Source of the DNA: Alistipes sp.
GTDB taxonomy: Bacteria > Bacteroidota > Bacteroidia > Bacteroidales > Rikenellaceae
Assembly: GCA_017935185.1 (NCBI GenBank)
Contig: JAGBIC010000043.1
Span: 1 to 48,426, forward strand
Direction: 5' to 3'
Length of the DNA: 48,426 bases
The notes under the pieces: model-generated
Told to the model about the DNA's origin: nothing
What the model saw: only the letters and a program-made list of their open reading frames with translations
Databases searched by the model: none
Made by a program: the position numbers and the translations under genes
Shown: positions 4,954-13,014 of the stretch, piece after piece
How positions within the stretch are numbered: the first letter of the stretch is position 1
Layout: every line of letters starts with the position of its first letter

Positions 4954-5799
4954 ATGGCAAGAAGATTACATCTGATATGTGGAGAGTCAGGCGCAGCAAC
5001 GTTGCGTCTGGCTCTCTCTGATTCTTGTCGGCATGATCAGATACTTGTCTTTCCGAATATATTGCAATACGGTCTGTTGCCCACAGCCTTCGATGAAGAG
5101 CCTGTGCGAAAATATGTCGATAGTTGTCGTGATATGTTTCTCATGGGCAAAAGTGAATGTGAAGGGGTAGTTGAGGCAATATTATCTTTCTCGAATTTCG
5201 ATTTTTCGGGCTATGACGATATAATTCTGTGGCATGGTGATACCGTTGGCGACACGCTGTTTTATTATATGGTATGTTATATGCTCTCTGTGGAGTTGCA
5301 TGAGGTTTGCATAAATCGTATTCGTCCGATGTTGCCAAATCCTAACACAAGTGTGTCGCTGACAATATGTTCGGTGGATAATATAAAGGTGTTACTTTAT
5401 TCTATTGCAAAAATACCCCAAAATAATCAGGTGCATGCCGCAAGGATGTGGCAGCGATGGATTGAATCGCCGAGCGAATTGCGTGTTTCGACTCAATGTG
5501 GCGAGATTATAGGTGTAAGCAAGGATTTTCTTGATGAGATTATCATAAAGACATGTGGTCGCGAGTGGCGTTCGGCAGCAAGAGTCGTGGGTGAAATTTT
5601 GTGTGATACGGGTTTTATTGTCGGTGATAACTTTTTGCATAACAGAATGATATGCCTTGCTCGTTGTGGGGCGTTGTCGGTTCGTCGAAATGTTAAGTCT
5701 TTTACCGATATGGCTTGTAATATCGAGGGTAGCAGAGACCCGATATTGGTCGATGGTGTCGATGTCGGGCAACTTCGACTCTTTGAAGTTTCGGTATAA
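4954..5799 (+). CDS. DUF1835-like protein
   Basis: 281 residues. The N-terminus (LHLICGESGAATLRLAL, residues 5-21), a Gly-Leu-Pro stretch near 40 and the segment IILWHGDTVGDTLFYYM near residue 90 resemble the DUF1835 pattern: a nucleotide-binding-like start with a later W-x-G-D segment. The C-terminal half may correspond to the DUF3658-type partner domain, but I cannot confirm this by eye. It is cytoplasmic with no membrane segment. It starts 9 bases after the preceding hypothetical gene and ends the gltX-galM gene run. The molecular role of the family is not known to me. Confidence 0.65.
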   Translation: MARRLHLICGESGAATLRLALSDSCRHDQILVFPNILQYGLLPTAFDEEPVRKYVDSCRDMFLMGKSECEGVVEAILSFSNFDFSGYDDIILWHGDTVGDTLFYYMVCYMLSVELHEVCINRIRPMLPNPNTSVSLTICSVDNIKVLLYSIAKIPQNNQVHAARMWQRWIESPSELRVSTQCGEIIGVSKDFLDEIIIKTCGREWRSAARVVGEILCDTGFIVGDNFLHNRMICLARCGALSVRRNVKSFTDMACNIEGSRDPILVDGVDVGQLRLFEVSV

Positions 5800-5877
5800 A
5801 GCGTCAAATTATTTATAAAATATGGTGTTTTTTGTTATTTTTTTGCATGAAAATGAATATTTATAGCAATTAAATAC

Positions 5878-5885
5878 TATATTTG
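5878..5885 (+). promoter_or_regulatory. -7 box of the his operon promoter
   Basis: TATATTTG at 5878-5885 matches TAnnTTTG exactly. No clear TTTG lies about 20 bases upstream; the nearest is at 5842-5845, too far. The surrounding bases are very A+T rich. Transcription would start near 5892, about 14 bases before the leader-peptide ATG at 5906, so the leader would be at the very 5' end of the mRNA as an attenuator requires. Confidence 0.55.
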
Positions 5886-5905
5886 CATAAACAAAGCATA
5901 CGAAT

Positions 5906-5962
5906 ATGATTATCGCCATCAATATCCATCATCATCACCATATCTTGCGAAAGATACGGTAG
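5906..5962 (+). CDS. hisL: Histidine operon leader peptide
   Basis: An 18-codon open frame (ATG 5906, TAG 5960-5962) encodes MIIAINIHHHHHILRKIR. Codons 8-12 are five consecutive His codons (CAT CAT CAT CAC CAT, 5927-5941). It lies directly upstream of a terminator hairpin and a full his operon. That is the arrangement of a ribosome-mediated attenuator, in which charged tRNA-His is sensed through stalling at the His run. A run of five His codons by chance at exactly this site is very unlikely. The symbol is given by analogy with enterobacterial hisL; there is no sequence homology claim. Confidence 0.88.
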   Translation: MIIAINIHHHHHILRKIR

Positions 5963-6019
5963 GTTGTGGAGTATGGTGTATAGATGCATACAAAAGGCTT
6001 ACCGATAAGGTGAGCCTTT
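5936..6019 (+). promoter_or_regulatory. His transcription attenuator (alternative RNA pairings and terminator)
   Basis: Three competing pairings can be drawn. (a) Terminator: AAAGGCTTACC (5993-6003) with GGTGAGCCTTT (6009-6019), 11 pairs including one G-U, loop GATAA, followed by a T-rich stretch. (b) Antiterminator: CGGTAGG (5957-5963) with CTTACCG (5998-6004), 7 pairs including one G-U, which uses up the 5' arm of the terminator. (c) 1:2 pairing: CACCATA in the His codons (5936-5942) with TATGGTG (5972-5978). Pairing (c) crosses (b), so they exclude each other. A ribosome stalled at the His codons would block (c), allow (b) and prevent termination; one that finishes the leader covers 5957-5963 and lets (a) form. 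The hisG ATG is 41 bases beyond the terminator stem. Pairings are seen; the mechanism is inferred. Confidence 0.8.
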
Positions 6020-6060
6020 ATTTATTGATTTAAGAAATTATAACAAAAAGCTAAATAGTT

Positions 6061-6912
6061 ATGTTGCGAATTGCTATCCAAACCAAAGGACGATTGAATG
6101 AGCAGAGTCTCGGCCTGCTTCGAGAAATAGGTATCGATGTGGATGATGCCAAACGTAAATTTTTATCGAAAGCGGCAAATTTCCCTGTTGAGTTGCTTTA
6201 TCTGCGTGATGACGATATCCCGCAAGTAGTTGAGAATGGTACCGCCTCATTGGGTATAGTTGGTATGAACGAGGTGGCGGAACGGGGTTGTGATGTTGAG
6301 GTCGTGACAAAGTTGGGCTTTGGCGGTTGTCGCATATCGTTGGCAATACCCAAGGCTGACGAATATAATGGCGTGGAGTATTTCCAAGGCAAACGTATTG
6401 CAACATCATATCCTGCAATTCTGTCGAAATTTCTTAAGGAGCATGGTGTTGAGGCGAAGCTGGAGGTTATTACAGGCTCTGTCGAGATAGCCCCTGCGGC
6501 AGGTATCGCCGATGCGATTTTCGATATTGTCTCTTCGGGTGGCACGTTGGTGTCGAATGGCTTAAAGGAGGTCGAGCGAGTATTTGAGTCGGAGGCTGTC
6601 CTTATTGCAAATCGTAATCTTTCGCCCGAGGAGCGAGAGGTGCTTGACGAGTTGTTGTTCCGTATAGAGTCGGAGCGTGTGAGTCGAGGAAAGAAGTATC
6701 TTTTGATGAATATACCTACCGAATCACTAGATGAGGCGGTGAAGATTCTGCCTGCAATGCGCAGCCCTACAGTTATGCCGTTGGCTGCCGAGGGCTGGTG
6801 TTCGCTCCACTCGGTAGTTGATTCGGCCGATTTGTGGGAGAAAGTGCGCCAGCTGAAAGCTATTGGTGCCGAGGGAATTTTGGTGCTTACGTTGGATAAG
6901 ATAATTCCGTAG
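6061..6912 (+). CDS. hisG: ATP phosphoribosyltransferase (long form)
   Basis: First step of histidine synthesis: ATP plus PRPP to phosphoribosyl-ATP. At 283 residues it is the long, hexameric form, which carries its own C-terminal regulatory domain and does not need HisZ. The N-terminus is LRIAIQTKGRLNEQSL. The PRPP-binding segment is DAIFDIVSSGGTL near residue 160. The last 70 residues form the ACT-like HisG_C domain associated with feedback inhibition by histidine (family knowledge). It is the first structural gene after the attenuator, and hisD starts 4 bases after its TAG stop. Confidence 0.96.
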   Translation: MLRIAIQTKGRLNEQSLGLLREIGIDVDDAKRKFLSKAANFPVELLYLRDDDIPQVVENGTASLGIVGMNEVAERGCDVEVVTKLGFGGCRISLAIPKADEYNGVEYFQGKRIATSYPAILSKFLKEHGVEAKLEVITGSVEIAPAAGIADAIFDIVSSGGTLVSNGLKEVERVFESEAVLIANRNLSPEEREVLDELLFRIESERVSRGKKYLLMNIPTESLDEAVKILPAMRSPTVMPLAAEGWCSLHSVVDSADLWEKVRQLKAIGAEGILVLTLDKIIP

Positions 6913-6916
6913 AGAT

Positions 6917-8209
6917 ATGCAAAACATTGGAATATATATAAACCCTCCTCAAGAGGTCTGGCCCGAGCTCTGCAAGCGTGCCGAGCAGGATAATTCTGCT
7001 ATTGCCGAACGTGTGGAGGCGATTGTCGGCCGAGTGGCTTCGGAGGGTGATGCGGCTTTGTATGACCTCGCTGCACAGATTGATGGCGTAAAGTTGGACT
7101 CGTTGGCTGTTGCTGAAGAAGAGTTTTTGCAAGCTGAACAGAAGGTGAGCGCCGAGGTTAAGGGTGCTATTGAGGTGGCTGTGAAGAATATCACAGCATT
7201 TCATAGGGCGCAAATGCCCGCTTGCATTGAAGTGGATACAAGCGCAGGCGTAAAGTGCATCCAGAAACCTATTGCCATCAGGCGTGTAGGTCTTTATATC
7301 CCGGGTGGTACTGCTCCGCTGTTTTCTACGGTCCTGATGTTGGCACTGCCGGCTGCTATTGCCGGCTGTGGCGAGGTGGTGCTGTGTACCCCCACAAACA
7401 AGCAGGGACAGGTAGCTGCCGAGGTGCTTTATGCCGCTCGTCGCTGTGGTGTGGAGAAGGTCTTTAAGGTTGGCGGAGCGCAGGCTGTGGCTGCCATGGC
7501 CTATGGAACGGAGTCGGTGCCAAAGGTCGATAAGATTTTTGGTCCCGGTAACCGTTATGTGACTCTTGCCAAGCAGTTGGTAAGCGGTCGAAATACTTCA
7601 ATAGATATGCCCGCCGGCCCATCGGAGGTGATGATTATGGCCGATGAGTCAGCCTCGGCCGAGTTCGTGGCTGCAGATATGCTTTCACAGGCCGAGCATG
7701 GGCGTGATAGTCAGGCTATGGTTGTCTGCAACAGCGAGCAGTTGGCCGATGAAATTGTATGCGAGGTGCTGCGTCAGGCGCAGTTGCTTGACAGGGCAGA
7801 TTATGTGGCACATTCGCTGTTCAACAGTCGGGTGGTGGTTTTTGATAATCGCAACGACATGATAGCCTTTGCCAACGAGTATGCTGCCGAGCATCTGATT
7901 GTCTCGATGCAGGATGCGTGGGGCGTGGTTGAGGAAATTTATGCGGCAGGAAGTGTTTTTGTCGGTAATTACTCGCCCGAGAGTGCGGGCGACTACGCTT
8001 CGGGAACAAATCACACACTTCCCACATCAGGCTGGGCGCACTCTTGTAGTGGAGTCAATATCGATAGCTTTATGCGCAAGATGACTATTCAGGAGATTTC
8101 GGCTGATGGAATTCGTGGGTTGGCTCCTACAATTATTGCTATGGCCGAGGCCGAGGGGTTGGAGGCTCATGCGGCAGCGGTGAAGGTGAGAATTAAAAAT
8201 TGCAAGTAA
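6917..8209 (+). CDS. hisD: Histidinol dehydrogenase
   Basis: 430 residues. Oxidises L-histidinol to L-histidine in two NAD-dependent steps, the last reactions of the pathway. The substrate-channel segment YIPGGTAPLFSTVLM is near residues 128-142, and DMPAGPSEVMIMAD near 230. The zinc and catalytic region is SQAEHGRDSQ (zinc Gln and His). FANEYAAEHLIV holds the catalytic Glu-His pair, and TSGWAHSCSGVN the C-terminal His. Full family length. Gap to hisG is 4 bases; the next start is 2 bases after its TAA. Confidence 0.97.
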   Translation: MQNIGIYINPPQEVWPELCKRAEQDNSAIAERVEAIVGRVASEGDAALYDLAAQIDGVKLDSLAVAEEEFLQAEQKVSAEVKGAIEVAVKNITAFHRAQMPACIEVDTSAGVKCIQKPIAIRRVGLYIPGGTAPLFSTVLMLALPAAIAGCGEVVLCTPTNKQGQVAAEVLYAARRCGVEKVFKVGGAQAVAAMAYGTESVPKVDKIFGPGNRYVTLAKQLVSGRNTSIDMPAGPSEVMIMADESASAEFVAADMLSQAEHGRDSQAMVVCNSEQLADEIVCEVLRQAQLLDRADYVAHSLFNSRVVVFDNRNDMIAFANEYAAEHLIVSMQDAWGVVEEIYAAGSVFVGNYSPESAGDYASGTNHTLPTSGWAHSCSGVNIDSFMRKMTIQEISADGIRGLAPTIIAMAEAEGLEAHAAAVKVRIKNCK

Positions 8210-8211
8210 CT

Positions 8212-9261
8212 ATGAAAGAGCAAAATATTAAGAATATCGTACGAGGATGTATAGCTACACTTTCGCCATATTCAACAGCTCGCGATGAATATAAAGGTTC
8301 GTTGGGTGTTTTTCTCGATGCTAATGAGAGCCCCTACGAAAACGGCTACAACCGTTACCCCGATCCTCATCAGAAGCAGCTCAAGCAGGCTATTTCGCAA
8401 GTGAAGGGTGTGGCTGCTGAAAATATATTTATAGGCAACGGTAGCGATGAGGCTATCGACTTGCTCTTCAGAGTCTTCTGCGAACCTCGTCAGGATAATG
8501 TCGTGGCCATAGCTCCCAGCTATGGAATGTATAAGGTGGCTGCTGCAATTAACGATGTCGAAATGCGGGAGGTGCAATTGGGTACAGATTTTTCGTTGCC
8601 TGTTGACGAATTGTTGCAGAGTGCAGATGAGCATACAAAACTGATTTTTTTGTGTTCGCCGAACAACCCTACAGGAAATAGCTTTCTGCGGGCAGATATG
8701 TTGCGTGTGGCAGAGGAGTTTGAGGGTGTTGTGGTTGTCGATGAGGCTTATATCGATTTTGCCGATGCCGAGAGTCTTACGGATGCAATTGCAGCATATC
8801 CCAATCTTGTAGTGCTGCAAACCATGTCCAAGGCGTGGGGTATGGCTGGCCTGCGTGTGGGGCTTGCTATTGCCGATGATTACATAATTGGCTTGATGTC
8901 GCAGGTGAAATACCCCTACAATATCAATCTGGCGACCATGCATCTTGTCGAGGAGTTGCTCCGTGAGCCTGTGTTGGAGCATGTTGCGGAGATAAAGATT
9001 CAGCGTGAGGCGTTGTCGGCTGCCCTGACTTCCATGTCGTTTGTAGAGCATGTCTATCCTAGCGATGCCAATTTTTTGTTGGTGAAAGTGGCTGATGCCG
9101 ATGCGCTGTATGACCACCTTATTGCTGATGGTATAATTGTCAGAAACCGTAATCGTATTAAAGGTTGTGAGGGGTGTCTGCGTATAACTGTCGGTATGTC
9201 ACACGAGAATGAAAAGTTGATAAAATCACTCAAAAAATATGAAGAGAGTCTTGTTTATTGA
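8212..9261 (+). CDS. hisC: Histidinol-phosphate aminotransferase
   Basis: 349 residues from the ATG at 8212; an in-frame TTG at 8200 lies inside hisD and is unlikely. PLP-dependent fold-type I aminotransferase converting imidazole-acetol phosphate to histidinol phosphate. Visible motifs are [18 protein letters not shown] at the N-terminus, the cofactor loop [32 protein letters not shown], and the Schiff-base lysine at residue 207 in [12 protein letters not shown]. The 3' end overlaps hisB by 23 bases. Confidence 0.96.
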
Positions 9262-10363
9262 TCGCGACGGTACAATCATCGTCGAACCGCCGGTGGATTA
9301 TCAGGTTGATTCATTGGAGAAACTGGAATTTGTGGCCGGAGCAATATCGGGCCTGCGCTCTTTGGCAGAGTTGGATTATGAATTGGTTATGGCATCAAAT
9401 CAGGACGGACTGGGTACCGACTCTTTCCCCGAAGAGACCTTTTGGCCGGCTCACACCAAGATGTTAAGAACGTTGGCGGGTGAGGGAGTGTTTTTCGATG
9501 ACCAACTTATCGACCCCTCTTTGCCTGAAGATAATGCTCCAACCCGAAAACCACAAACGGGTATGTTTGGCAAGTATCTCTCGGGCGAGTATGACATGGC
9601 CTCAAGCTATGTGATAGGCGATAGAGCCACCGATGTGGAGCTGGCGTATAATCTGGGAGCAAAGGCTGTTTTACTGCAATCGCCTGCCGAGGGTGAGCAG
9701 ATGCTCAAGGGTAAACCGTTTGCATCGGCATGTGTTTTAATGAGTGATAAATGGAGCGATATTGCCGAGTTCTTGCGTCGTACGGAGCGTCGTGCCGAGG
9801 TTGTCAGAAATACGTCAGAGACCGATATCCGTATCGCAATCGATCTCGATGGTTGTGGCGATTCTCAAGTTGATACGGGCCTAAAATTCTTTGATCACAT
9901 GTTGTGGCAACTACCTCATCATGCAGGAATATCCATGACAGCCATATGCCGTGGTGATTTGGAGGTAGACGAGCATCACACCATCGAGGATGTCGCAATA
10001 GCTTTGGGTGAGGCGATATATCAGGCTTTGGGTTCGAAACGAGGTATTGATCGCTATGGTTTTGTGCTGCCGATGGATGAATGTCAGGCGATGGTGCTGA
10101 TCGATTTCGGTGGCCGTGCCGATTTTGTGTGGAGTGTGCCGTTTACCCGAGAAAAGGTGGGAGATGTGCCTACCGAGATGTTTAAGCACTTCTTCAAGTC
10201 GTTGTGCGTGGCTATGCGATGCAATTTGCACATCGAGGCAAAGGGCGAGAATAATCACCATCTTATCGAGGGCGTTTTCAAGGGCTTTGCGCGGGCGTTG
10301 AAGATGGCTGTGCGGCGCGATGTTTTCAAGTATGAGTTACCATCAAGCAAAGGCGTGTTATGA
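9239..10363 (+). CDS. hisB: Bifunctional histidinol-phosphatase / imidazoleglycerol-phosphate dehydratase
   Basis: 374 residues. Residues 1-165 form a HAD-type phosphatase with the nucleophile motif DRDGT (Asp8 and Asp10) and the metal motif [10 protein letters not shown]. Residues 180-374 are the IGPD dehydratase, with the manganese-binding [12 protein letters not shown] and DEHHTIEDV clusters. The loop that carries zinc-binding Cys/His in E. coli HisB reads [15 protein letters not shown] here, so those ligands are absent. Start overlaps hisC by 23 bases; the stop overlaps the hisH start (ATGA). Both activities are expected to be cytoplasmic. Confidence 0.95.
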
Positions 10364-10944
10364 TAGCAATAATAGATTATAAAATGGGTAATCTGCGCTC
10401 GGTGGAGAATGTGTTGAAGCGTTTGGGCGCAGAATTTTGCGTAACGGCTGATGCTGATGTCGTTCGTGCTGCCGATAGGGTGTTGCTGCCCGGAGTGGGT
10501 AATGCTGCCGAGGCTATGGAGAATCTGCACAAGGCGGGTCTTGTGGATGTTATCCGTTCATTGAGGCAACCTGTGCTGGGAATTTGTGTCGGCATGCAGG
10601 TTATGTGCCGCCATAGCGAGGAGGGAGATGTTGACTGCCTTAATATATTTGATACGCATGTCAAGCGTTTTGTCCCTACCGCCGATTTGAAAGTCCCCCA
10701 TATGGGATGGAATAAGATTGGCAATCTTGAGTCGAAATTGTTTAAGGGTATTGAGGGTGGAAGCTATGTGTATTTTGTTCACTCTTTTTATCCGGAATTA
10801 TGTCCCGACACCATTGCCACGGCAACACATGGAAAAATGTTCAGCGCAGCGCTGTAGTATGAGAATTTTTATGGCACGCAATTCCACCCCGAAAAGAGTG
10901 GTGATGTGGGTGAGCAGATAATCGCAAATTTCCTGAAATTATGA
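10360..10944 (+). pseudogene. hisH: Imidazole glycerol phosphate synthase glutaminase subunit, interrupted by an in-frame TAG
   Basis: The frame runs from ATG 10360 to TAG at 10855-10857 (165 residues). In the same frame it continues for 28 more codons, including YGTQFHPEKSGDVGEQ, to TGA 10942-10944, which overlaps the hisA ATG. The full frame would be 194 residues, normal for HisH. The nucleophile Cys76 (GICVGMQ) lies before the stop. The catalytic His and Glu of FHPEK (codons 176 and 178) lie after it, so the truncated product should lack glutaminase activity. TAG is codon 166 and could derive from GAG or CAG by one change. Other genes here end with TAG (hisG, hisIE, sufB, sufC), so reassignment of TAG is unlikely. 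It is either a recent nonsense mutation, low-level readthrough, or a sequencing error. Confidence 0.85.
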
Positions 10945-11675
10945 GTAAAATAGAGCTTATACCCGCCATAGATATTATCGAGGGTCGTTGCGTGCGCCTG
11001 TCGCAGGGCGACTATGCTCGCAGCAAGGTTTATGATGCCAGCCCCGTAGATATGGCCAAGCGATATGCCGATTGTGGCGTGAAGCGTATCCATGTGGTTG
11101 ATTTGGATGGCGCAAAATCCTCTGCACCAAAAAATCTTAAGACTCTCGAAAAGATGGCTCTCGGGGCCTCGGTCGATATTGAGTGGGGCGGCGGAATAAA
11201 AAGTGAGGAATCTTTGCGCGCATTGTTTGATTATGGTGCAACCTATGCTATTGTGGGCAGTATTGCGGCACAACAACCGCAACTCTTTGGTGAGTGGCTT
11301 GCCCGATTTGGTGGCGAACGGATGGTGCTGGGTGCCGATGTACGTAATGGTAAGGTCTCGGTAAATGGCTGGCAGGAGGATTTGGCTATATCTATCGAAG
11401 AACTTGTCGAGGGTTTTCTGCCGTTGGGACTTCGTCAGGTCGTATGTACCGACATAACCCGTGACGGCATGCTGCAAGGCCCGTCGTTTGAATTATACAC
11501 CGAACTGCAGAGTCGTTTCGGTGAGGTCGACTTCACTGTTTCGGGAGGCATTAGCTCGATGGCCGATATTGAACGTTTGAACGAACTCGAACTGCGTAAG
11601 GTGATTATCGGCAAGGCTATATATGAGAATCGTATAACATTAAAAGATATTGAACAATGGTCGCTAAACGCATAA
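10941..11675 (+). CDS. hisA: ProFAR isomerase
   Basis: 244 residues, a half-barrel-repeat (beta-alpha)8 enzyme that isomerises ProFAR to PRFAR. The N-terminal catalytic Asp is in LIPAIDIIEGRCVRL, phosphate-binding glycines are in EWGGGIKSE and FTVSGGISS, and the second catalytic Asp is in CTDITRDGML. Overlaps the end of the hisH frame by 4 bases (ATGA) and hisF by 19 bases. The overlap with the hisH stop beyond the TAG shows that the original hisH extended to 10944. Confidence 0.95.
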   Translation: MSKIELIPAIDIIEGRCVRLSQGDYARSKVYDASPVDMAKRYADCGVKRIHVVDLDGAKSSAPKNLKTLEKMALGASVDIEWGGGIKSEESLRALFDYGATYAIVGSIAAQQPQLFGEWLARFGGERMVLGADVRNGKVSVNGWQEDLAISIEELVEGFLPLGLRQVVCTDITRDGMLQGPSFELYTELQSRFGEVDFTVSGGISSMADIERLNELELRKVIIGKAIYENRITLKDIEQWSLNA

Positions 11676-12415
11676 TTCCCTGTCTTGATGTTAAGGATGG
11701 TCGCACGGTCAAGGGTGTGAATTTTGTTGACCTGCGTGATGTCGGTGACGCGGTCGAGTTGGGCCAGTTTTACGCCAAAGGAGGAGCTGATGAGTTGGTG
11801 TATCTTGACATAAGTGCTACACGTGAGGGTCGCAATACCTTCACTCGCCTTGTGGAGCGTATTTCTGATGGTATAAATATCCCTTTTACCGTTGGTGGAG
11901 GTATTTCATCGTTGGATGACGCATCGCGTCTGCTCGATGCCGGAGCCGATAAGATTTCGATAAATAGTGCTGCCATAGCAAATCCGTCGCTCATTGATTC
12001 AATTGCGGCTCGCTATGGTAGTCAGTTCGTTGTGGTGGCAATTGATGCCCGACAGATGGAGGATGGTATCTGGCGGGCAACAACGCATGGCGGCAGCCGT
12101 CCCAGCGACAAAGAGCTTTTTTCGTGGGCTCGTGAGGCGCAGGAGCGTGGCGCGGGAGAGATTTTGTTCACCTCGATGAATCATGATGGCACTCGTCAGG
12201 GCTATCCGTGTGATACCTTTGCGCAGTTGGCCGATACGATAACCATTCCCATAATAGCCTCGGGTGGCGCAGGCTCGGTTGAAGATATTGCCGAGGTGCT
12301 TACCGTAGGCCGAGCCGATGCGGCGTTGGCTGCAAGTATATTTCATTTTGGTGAGATTACTGTGGCACAGTTGAAAAAGGAGTTGAGAGAAAGAAATATT
12401 GATGTTAGACTATGA
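11657..12415 (+). CDS. hisF: Imidazole glycerol phosphate synthase cyclase subunit
   Basis: 252 residues. The (beta-alpha)8 cyclase takes ammonia from HisH and converts PRFAR to imidazole glycerol phosphate and AICAR. Signature segments are KRIIPCLDVKDGRTVKGVNF with the catalytic Asp, IPFTVGGGISS, VVAIDARQ, the catalytic region NHDGTRQGYP, and ASGGAGS near the C-terminus. Full length with no damage. HisF can in general use free ammonia without HisH (family knowledge), which matters because hisH here is interrupted. Starts inside hisA and its TGA overlaps the hisIE ATG. Confidence 0.96.
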   Translation: MVAKRIIPCLDVKDGRTVKGVNFVDLRDVGDAVELGQFYAKGGADELVYLDISATREGRNTFTRLVERISDGINIPFTVGGGISSLDDASRLLDAGADKISINSAAIANPSLIDSIAARYGSQFVVVAIDARQMEDGIWRATTHGGSRPSDKELFSWAREAQERGAGEILFTSMNHDGTRQGYPCDTFAQLADTITIPIIASGGAGSVEDIAEVLTVGRADAALAASIFHFGEITVAQLKKELRERNIDVRL

Positions 12416-13014
12416 TAAAATTTGATGACCTTAATCTGAAAAAGTGTGCCGACGGCCTGTTACCCGTAATTGTGCAGGATGCAGTGACGCTTAAAGTGCT
12501 GATGTTGGGCTATATGAATCGTGAGGCTTATGAAAAGAGCCTTGCCGAGGGGCGTGTTACGTTCTATTCCCGCTCTCGCAACTGTCTATGGACCAAGGGT
12601 GAAACAAGCGGTAATTATCTCACAATCAAAGATATGTATCTCGATTGCGATAACGATACTCTGCTTATTAAGGCCATTCCCGCCGGCCCTACATGTCATC
12701 GTGGCACGACAAGTTGTTTCGATACCCCCGATAGCGAGGGTTTTATCCGTCACTTGCAGAGTGTGATTCAGCAGCGTCATCGTGAAATGCCCGAAGGCTC
12801 GTATACCACAAAACTTTTTATCAAGGGCGTGAAAAAGATTGCTCAAAAAGTGGGCGAGGAGGCTGTTGAGAGCGTTGTTGAGGCTGTGGATGGCAATCGC
12901 GACCGTTTTATCTATGAGGCTTCCGATATGATATATCACTTGCTCGTGCTGATGGAGCAGATGGGCTGCTCGCTGGAGGATATGGAGCACGAGTTGGCGT
13001 TGAGGCATAGGTAG
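12412..13014 (+). CDS. hisI: Bifunctional phosphoribosyl-AMP cyclohydrolase / phosphoribosyl-ATP pyrophosphatase
   Basis: 200 residues, the HisIE fusion covering steps 2 and 3 of the pathway. Residues 1-110 are the zinc- and magnesium-dependent cyclohydrolase: VTFYSRSRNCLWTKGETSGN, DCDNDTLL, and cysteines in GPTCHRGTTSCF. Residues 115-200 are the all-alpha pyrophosphohydrolase, with KKIAQKVGEEAVESV and the acidic EASDMIYHLLVLM. Last gene of the operon, overlapping hisF by 4 bases, with TAG stop at 13012-13014. Confidence 0.96.
   Translation: MIKFDDLNLKKCADGLLPVIVQDAVTLKVLMLGYMNREAYEKSLAEGRVTFYSRSRNCLWTKGETSGNYLTIKDMYLDCDNDTLLIKAIPAGPTCHRGTTSCFDTPDSEGFIRHLQSVIQQRHREMPEGSYTTKLFIKGVKKIAQKVGEEAVESVVEAVDGNRDRFIYEASDMIYHLLVLMEQMGCSLEDMEHELALRHR

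Follow-up and report, generated by a model that had tools for sequence, protein, structure and literature searches.

A putative ribosome-mediated attenuator with a His-rich leader peptide upstream of a Bacteroidota his operon

Upstream of hisG in an Alistipes genome (1.8 Mb, 75% complete), we identified an element that, judged from its sequence and those of its relatives, is very probably a ribosome-mediated transcription attenuator tuning the his operon to the supply of histidyl-tRNA through three alternative pairings of four RNA arms (1:2, 2:3 and 3:4). The element lies in the 48,426-nucleotide stretch of DNA that was analysed (contig JAGBIC010000043.1; hereafter the window). A first-pass annotation of the window had proposed a his attenuator with the classical logic in this phylum, and our comparative tests of the His run, the terminator and the antiterminator supported the proposal. 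The letters and coordinates that it gave for the 18-codon leader, the His codons (5927-5941) and the terminator (5993-6019) all matched the sequence. The element consists of the following features:

5878-5885, forward strand: presumed Bacteroidota -7 promoter element TAnnTTTG (TATATTTG), 20 nt upstream of the leader ATG
5906-5962, forward strand: leader peptide ORF of 18 codons plus TAG, MIIAINIHHHHHILRKIR (ATG at 5906, TAG at 5960-5962)
5927-5941, forward strand: five His codons CAT CAT CAT CAC CAT, read from the sequence; proposed sensing codons and arm 1 (5' side of the protector)
5925-5970, forward strand: proposed protector (1:2), His codons paired with the antiterminator arm; encloses the inner hairpin TATCTT-GCGA-AAGATA at 5941-5956
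5957-5965, forward strand: arm 2, 5' arm of the putative antiterminator, CGGTAGGTT; includes the leader stop TAG
5996-6004, forward strand: arm 3 (GGCTTACCG), common to antiterminator and terminator according to the pairing analyses
5993-6019, forward strand: predicted intrinsic terminator hairpin (3:4), 11 bp, -16.6 kcal/mol, followed by an interrupted T-rich tail at 6021-6026

The surrounding genes were assigned from ORFs and NCBIfam matches:

4954-5799, forward strand: unnamed ORF of 281 aa, directly upstream of the attenuator
6061-6912, forward strand: hisG, at the head of the controlled operon (TIGR00070 equivalog, above cut-off)
6917-13014, forward strand: hisD, hisC, hisB (bifunctional), hisH, hisA, hisF and hisIE

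The operon order at 6061-13014 is hisG-D-C-B-H-A-F-IE, and all eight genes exceed an NCBIfam cut-off, while the upstream ORF had no NCBIfam match at E ≤ 0.001.

In the mechanism that we propose, RNA polymerase would start shortly before 5906, and the leader would be translated by a ribosome. When charged tRNA-His is scarce, the ribosome would stall at 5927-5941 and open the protector formed by arms 1 and 2, arm 2 beginning approximately at its leading edge. Arm 2, now free, would pair with arm 3, which would block the terminator and let the polymerase read into hisG. When histidine is plentiful, the ribosome would reach the stop codon and thereby cover arm 2, within which this codon lies; arm 3 would then pair with arm 4, and transcription would end just after 6019. 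If the leader were not translated at all, the protector would form and the terminator would win. Of these steps, we infer the stalling, the protector role, the termination in vivo and the response to histidine.

In order to evaluate the conservation of the leader, we assembled a close set of 150 hisG upstream regions. Of 150 same-family genomes, all 70 that had a hisG match were used, and named assemblies supplied a further 80 loci, the best of 88. Removal of 8 regions whose last 200 nt were identical to those of others left 142 distinct ones. The nearest named relatives, among these best 80 of 88 loci, were Alistipes and other Rikenellaceae MAGs, several of them labelled as coming from deer, goat and cattle guts. 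The distribution of hisG was patchy (70 of 150 same-family genomes), and the matches within the genus fell into two groups of 86-92% and 59-65% identity, suggesting either a very broad genus or a replacement of the operon. One contig, of a MAG titled Akkermansia sp. (L058), carried a Bacteroidales-like hisG and a leader peptide identical to that of L059, and is probably from a mislabelled or mixed bin.

A leader was called when a short ORF contained at least three His within 8 codons (lax) or at least four (strict). His-rich leaders preceded hisG at 122 of the 142 close loci by the lax and 114 by the strict definition, whereas ten rounds of dinucleotide shuffling of the same regions gave 3 to 9 and 0 to 1, respectively. 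Real control stretches of the named loci gave 2/73, 3/73, 7/77 and 1/79 (lax) and 0/73, 0/73, 1/77 and 0/79 (strict), the control with 7/77 being the reverse complement of the hisG upstream region itself. In the window's genome, the CAYCAYCAYCAY pattern had 19 matches, 2 of them overlapping within the his leader, versus 4 for the reversed pattern.

The wider sampling covered the class and then the phylum. In the class-wide draw, 72 of 159 genomes, the window's own included, had a hisG match; 56 of these, together with 4 genomes of the class that had come up in the phylum draw, were hand-picked to spread over families, giving a set of 60. Leaders were present at 53/60 (lax) and 43/60 (strict) of these loci, versus 2 to 7 and 0 to 1 in shuffles. 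By the lax definition they occurred in 30 of 35 families (hand count), a few of which may be chance. Thus, the comparison among relatives that the first-pass annotation had called for found the His run conserved both in the close and in the class-wide set. Genomes of the same phylum but other classes had a hisG match in 78 cases; in the 20 sampled, a leader was found at 9 loci (5/14 families), versus 0 to 4 in shuffles. Seven phylum-only loci had a divergent HisG, matching from residue 3-8 on with 27-34% identity, and none of them had a leader.

Peptide length and the residues outside the His run varied among leaders while the run itself was conserved, as expected for a sensor and not for a functional peptide. 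The leader stop was TAG in 77/121 close loci, versus 17/81 hisG stops, and in 9/52 wider leaders, so this preference is a trait of the close group only. Such leader ORFs probably often go unannotated. No leader was called at 20 of the 142 close loci, two of which (L094 and L111) are on contig ends. At three others (L018, L113 and L148), the typical GGCTTACC terminator was retained before hisG, with a decayed His run or a missing leader; they may be attenuators in decay. By eye, the remaining uncalled loci showed no leader-like features or apparently had another gene directly upstream.

The leaders were preceded by TAnnTTTG, which we take to be the Bacteroidota -7 element. It occurred in the 75 nt before the leader start at 105/119 close loci, versus 5.7 expected from mononucleotide shuffles, and in 37/52 wider loci, versus 3.0 expected. 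Therefore, the leader is probably very near the 5' end of the transcript, which in the window would presumably start at about 5889-5893, given the spacing that we assume from the -7 element. No clear copy of the -33 TTTG was seen upstream of the window's leader. Bacteroidota mostly initiate translation without Shine-Dalgarno (SD) sequences; an SD-like motif was found upstream of 2 of 121 close leaders; the translation start of the leader probably sits in an A-rich context.

The terminator, which the first-pass annotation had described as strong, was borne out by folding: none of 500 dinucleotide shuffles of 5993-6019 reached its -16.6 kcal/mol. When 22 close relatives were aligned (A1), 95.4% of the cells of the terminator helix were paired and 4 pairs had changed on both sides. 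A terminator followed 121 of the 122 close leaders, versus 67 of 363 shuffles, and the sole exception (L062) is probably a chance leader call. Among the 62 wider leaders, 52 were followed by a terminator, versus 8.7% of shuffles. A hairpin upstream of hisG might instead hide the hisG start region and leave transcription to continue, the control being translational. This reading draws on the T tail in the window, which is modest and interrupted (ATTTATTG), and on the 10 of 62 wider leaders where the terminator was absent by the criterion used, as some lineages may act translationally or via Rho. Nevertheless, we consider it very unlikely for the locus, as the window's hairpin is strong and its 3' end lies 41 nt short of the hisG ATG, terminator-like hairpins follow nearly every close leader and some of the 10 exceptions showed, by eye, weak hairpins rich in A and T, with T runs, below the cut-off. 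Five of the His-rich leaders without an intrinsic terminator by this criterion (L174, L183, L188, L237 and L239) may represent a Rho-dependent or translational variant; in three of them (L174, L183 and L188), the peptide has HHSS at its C terminus and a similar hairpin, ATTCCTC...GAGGAA, sits at the stop codon.

In the transcriptional attenuator that we favor, the terminator competes with the 2:3 helix, which had been claimed as the 7-bp pairing of CGGTAGG (5957-5963) with CTTACCG (5998-6004). These 7 bp were present and extend to 9 bp (5957-5965 with 5996-6004). In the 22 close relatives, 98.5% of the cells of this helix were paired, and neither its covariation score nor its 11 double-change cells were reached by any of 500 shuffles. 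The double changes were confined to one outer pair, since the inner pairs hardly vary. Taken singly, the window's arm duplex was unexceptional, since 6 of 100 shuffled versions of the arm region did as well, and the support for the antiterminator comes from comparison. We then computed, for each leader, the duplex between the sequence surrounding the leader stop and the 5' arm of the terminator. In 121 close loci, the mean energy was -14.7 kcal/mol for the locus's own arms, -12.3 between loci and -9.9 for shuffled sequences. In 52 wider loci, the corresponding means were -13.0, -9.4 (other loci's arms) and -8.2 kcal/mol, and the own duplex beat its swap mean in 47 of the 52. No more than 2 of 100 shuffles matched the duplex at 50/121 close and 21/52 wider loci, the latter by hand count. 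The arms themselves differ widely across the class, as illustrated by GGGTAAGCT with GGCTTACCC (L220), ACTCAAGCG with CGTTTGAGT (L205) and GGCGTCGG with CCGACGCT (L234), showing that the pairing and not the sequence is conserved.

The position of arm 2 relative to the His codons was also constrained. An arm-2 core of at least 6 bp started a median of 13 nt after the last His codon (102/121 close and 40/52 wide loci) and overlapped the leader stop codon in 73 of the 102 close loci. In a scan starting at the last His codon, a 6-bp core was present in 110/121 close loci, but also in 46% of shuffles, and arm 2 started 10-17 nt after that codon in 80% of the 110 close loci versus 17% of shuffled sequences. 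With the general value for the ribosome footprint, this predicted geometry suits a switch in which arm 2 stays accessible when the ribosome stalls at the His codons and is covered when the ribosome reaches the stop codon. We also considered that the ORF might encode a functional His-rich small protein, for example a metal-binding one, with the hairpin simply terminating a transcript from upstream. Metal binding is possible for His-rich peptides in general, and a same-strand ORF (4954-5799) does lie upstream, but the varying peptide length and non-His residues, the tie of the stop codon and of the spacing to RNA pairing and the presence of a Bacteroidota -7 element between that ORF and the leader make this extremely unlikely.

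Fold energies are in line with the attenuation scheme. In the window, the free RNA before arm 4 folded at -15.6 kcal/mol with the ribosome at the last His codon and at -2.3 kcal/mol with the ribosome at the stop codon. In 121 close loci, the medians for the free RNA up to arm 3 were -19.1 and -4.0, respectively, and the stalled-state fold was more than 3 kcal lower than the stop-state fold in 115 of them, part of this gap arising because more RNA is free in the stalled state. When arm 4 was added, the stalled-state fold of the window contained the terminator (-22.4 kcal/mol). The terminator being more stable even in the stalled state, the antiterminator must form first, with the outcome decided while the RNA is still being transcribed.

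The least well supported part of the scheme is the protector. The first-pass annotation had assigned this role to a pairing of CACCATA (5936-5942) with TATGGTG (5972-5978). The two segments are indeed complementary, but as the main protector this pairing was rejected, since 70.6% of its cells were paired, which was no better than shuffles, and it showed no covariation. Thus, of the three pairings in which compensatory changes had been sought, the terminator and the antiterminator showed them and this one did not. Pairing of the His codons with the antiterminator arm is a better candidate protector. The helix at 5925-5970 is contained in the minimum-energy fold of the leader, with a core of -15.5 kcal/mol, and in the 22 relatives 91.6% of its cells were paired (100% for the inner helix). 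Double-sided covariation did not exceed that of shuffles, in part because the sequence of the 5' arm is constrained to encode His. An RNAalifold consensus retained part of this helix. The RNA from 5927 to 6008 alone adopted the antiterminator fold, and the protector won only if the fold included the leader start. In the RNA from 5927 to 6027, the His codons paired differently with downstream sequence, suggesting that alternative protectors may coexist. The inner hairpin (5941-5956), just after the His codons, was paired in 22/22 close relatives with mostly GNRA-like loops, and is possibly a pause hairpin.

We searched the window against known RNA families. At gathering thresholds, the only Rfam 15 match in the whole window was a tRNA gene. 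The enterobacterial family His_leader (RF00514) was unmatched at its gathering threshold, and also at E ≤ 10 over 5800-6200. Two families scored below threshold: Bacteroid-trp (RF01692; 22.1 bits, E 4.7, gathering score 49) and Thr_leader (RF00506; 15.7 bits versus 55). Control by a T-box or another tRNA- or metabolite-binding riboswitch, with the His run incidental, would fit a structured 5' region before an amino-acid operon but has next to no probability, as neither a T-box nor a riboswitch in Rfam matched at E ≤ 10 over 5800-6200 and it is the His run that is conserved amid variable flanking residues.

Other amino-acid genes were inspected for similar leaders. Elsewhere in the window's genome (L252; G000:C38, ~23807, minus strand), a Phe/Tyr-rich leader, MNTNFFFYKRFYYYRLSGQDVVC, precedes a prephenate dehydratase (pheA-type) gene, with a terminator of -19.3 kcal/mol between them. 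By eye, GTCAGGAT near its stop codon can pair with the terminator arm ATCCTGAC, a design as in the his leader. A Phe/Tyr-rich short ORF, a candidate leader, was present upstream of 8/8 pheA-type loci examined. For trpE, no match was found in the window's genome (75% complete), and 2 of 13 genomes had one. In one of the two (L260; G417:C141), a Trp leader, MQLFSNIWWWQSLIIFVERSY, is located ~170 nt before trpE and is followed by a terminator with the same arm, GGCTTACC, as many his leaders. Nine regions upstream of homoserine dehydrogenase genes showed no convincing Thr/Ile leader.

From its distribution in the sequences compared, the his attenuator looks old and general, not an oddity. On balance, we lean toward the view that attenuation has been the default way of controlling his, pheA and trpE since the ancestor of the Bacteroidota, with a spacing of ~13 nt kept nearly fixed and the arm sequences rewritten. 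If this is true, these leaders would be sites of close coupling between transcription and translation throughout a phylum whose translation mostly starts without SD sequences, and amino-acid attenuators need not stem from the gamma-proteobacteria, contrary to the origin that a 2013 survey, in its accessible part, considers possible (PMC3766115). Because the leaders are widespread and nearly constant in geometry, the coupling of transcription and translation in Bacteroidota becomes testable, and the leaders offer a ready assay of whether ribosomes closely trail RNA polymerase there. In addition, the findings point to an RNA family for which Rfam release 15 has no entry at this locus. What is new here is the breadth, the fixed geometry and the similar pheA and trpE leaders; the mechanism itself is unsurprising.

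The novelty is also less than the first-pass annotation had suggested, given that Rfam contains Bacteroid-trp (RF01692) and that a flavobacterial hisG element has been flagged (PMC9723704). As far as the accessible parts of the sources go, amino-acid attenuators, a textbook case in enterobacteria, have been described for Proteobacteria, Actinobacteria and some Firmicutes (PMC2965389, PMC9413887), with candidate his attenuators in Firmicutes reported for a few lineages (same sources), and Bacteroid-trp was listed by Weinberg et al. in 2010 (PMC2864571). In the available portions of a 2021 transcriptome study of Flavobacterium psychrophilum, strong clues to leader-peptide attenuation upstream of amino-acid operons are reported, as are a hisG 5' element that is conserved in Flavobacteriaceae and has no Rfam hits, and a structured pheA 5' element (PMC9723704). 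A transcriptome study of Bacteroides thetaiotaomicron, in the part consulted, mentions long 5' UTRs in which short ORFs resemble leader peptides (PMC7366714). In the accessible text of a 2021 study of the his genes of this superphylum, attenuation is mentioned once, for enterobacteria (PMC8305728). The parts of the literature that were consulted contained no description of a Bacteroidota-wide his leader. Lopatovskaya et al. (2010) may list Bacteroidetes candidates.

The details of enterobacterial hisL that enter the following comparison are general background. Like hisL (RF00514), the window element has a short leader with a His run before hisG and mutually exclusive antiterminator and terminator, as far as hisL is covered in the accessible part of PMC9413887. 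Unlike hisL, it would follow a simpler three-helix scheme with the stop codon within the antiterminator arm, and it has a Bacteroidota promoter element and no SD sequence. Bacteroid-trp (RF01692) is, according to Rfam, likewise a peptide-leader cis-regulatory RNA of Bacteroidetes, but for Trp, whereas the window's leader carries His codons. The hisG element of Flavobacteriaceae, from what is accessible of PMC9723704, shares the phylum and the first gene with ours and belongs to another lineage; that part of the paper gives no leader sequence, pairing or covariation analysis. The Firmicutes candidates have similar His-rich leaders, with 3-5 consecutive His codons, a terminator and an antiterminator (PMC9413887, PMC2965389, accessible parts); they are reported for a few lineages, whereas the present leaders occur in most sampled families of the class.
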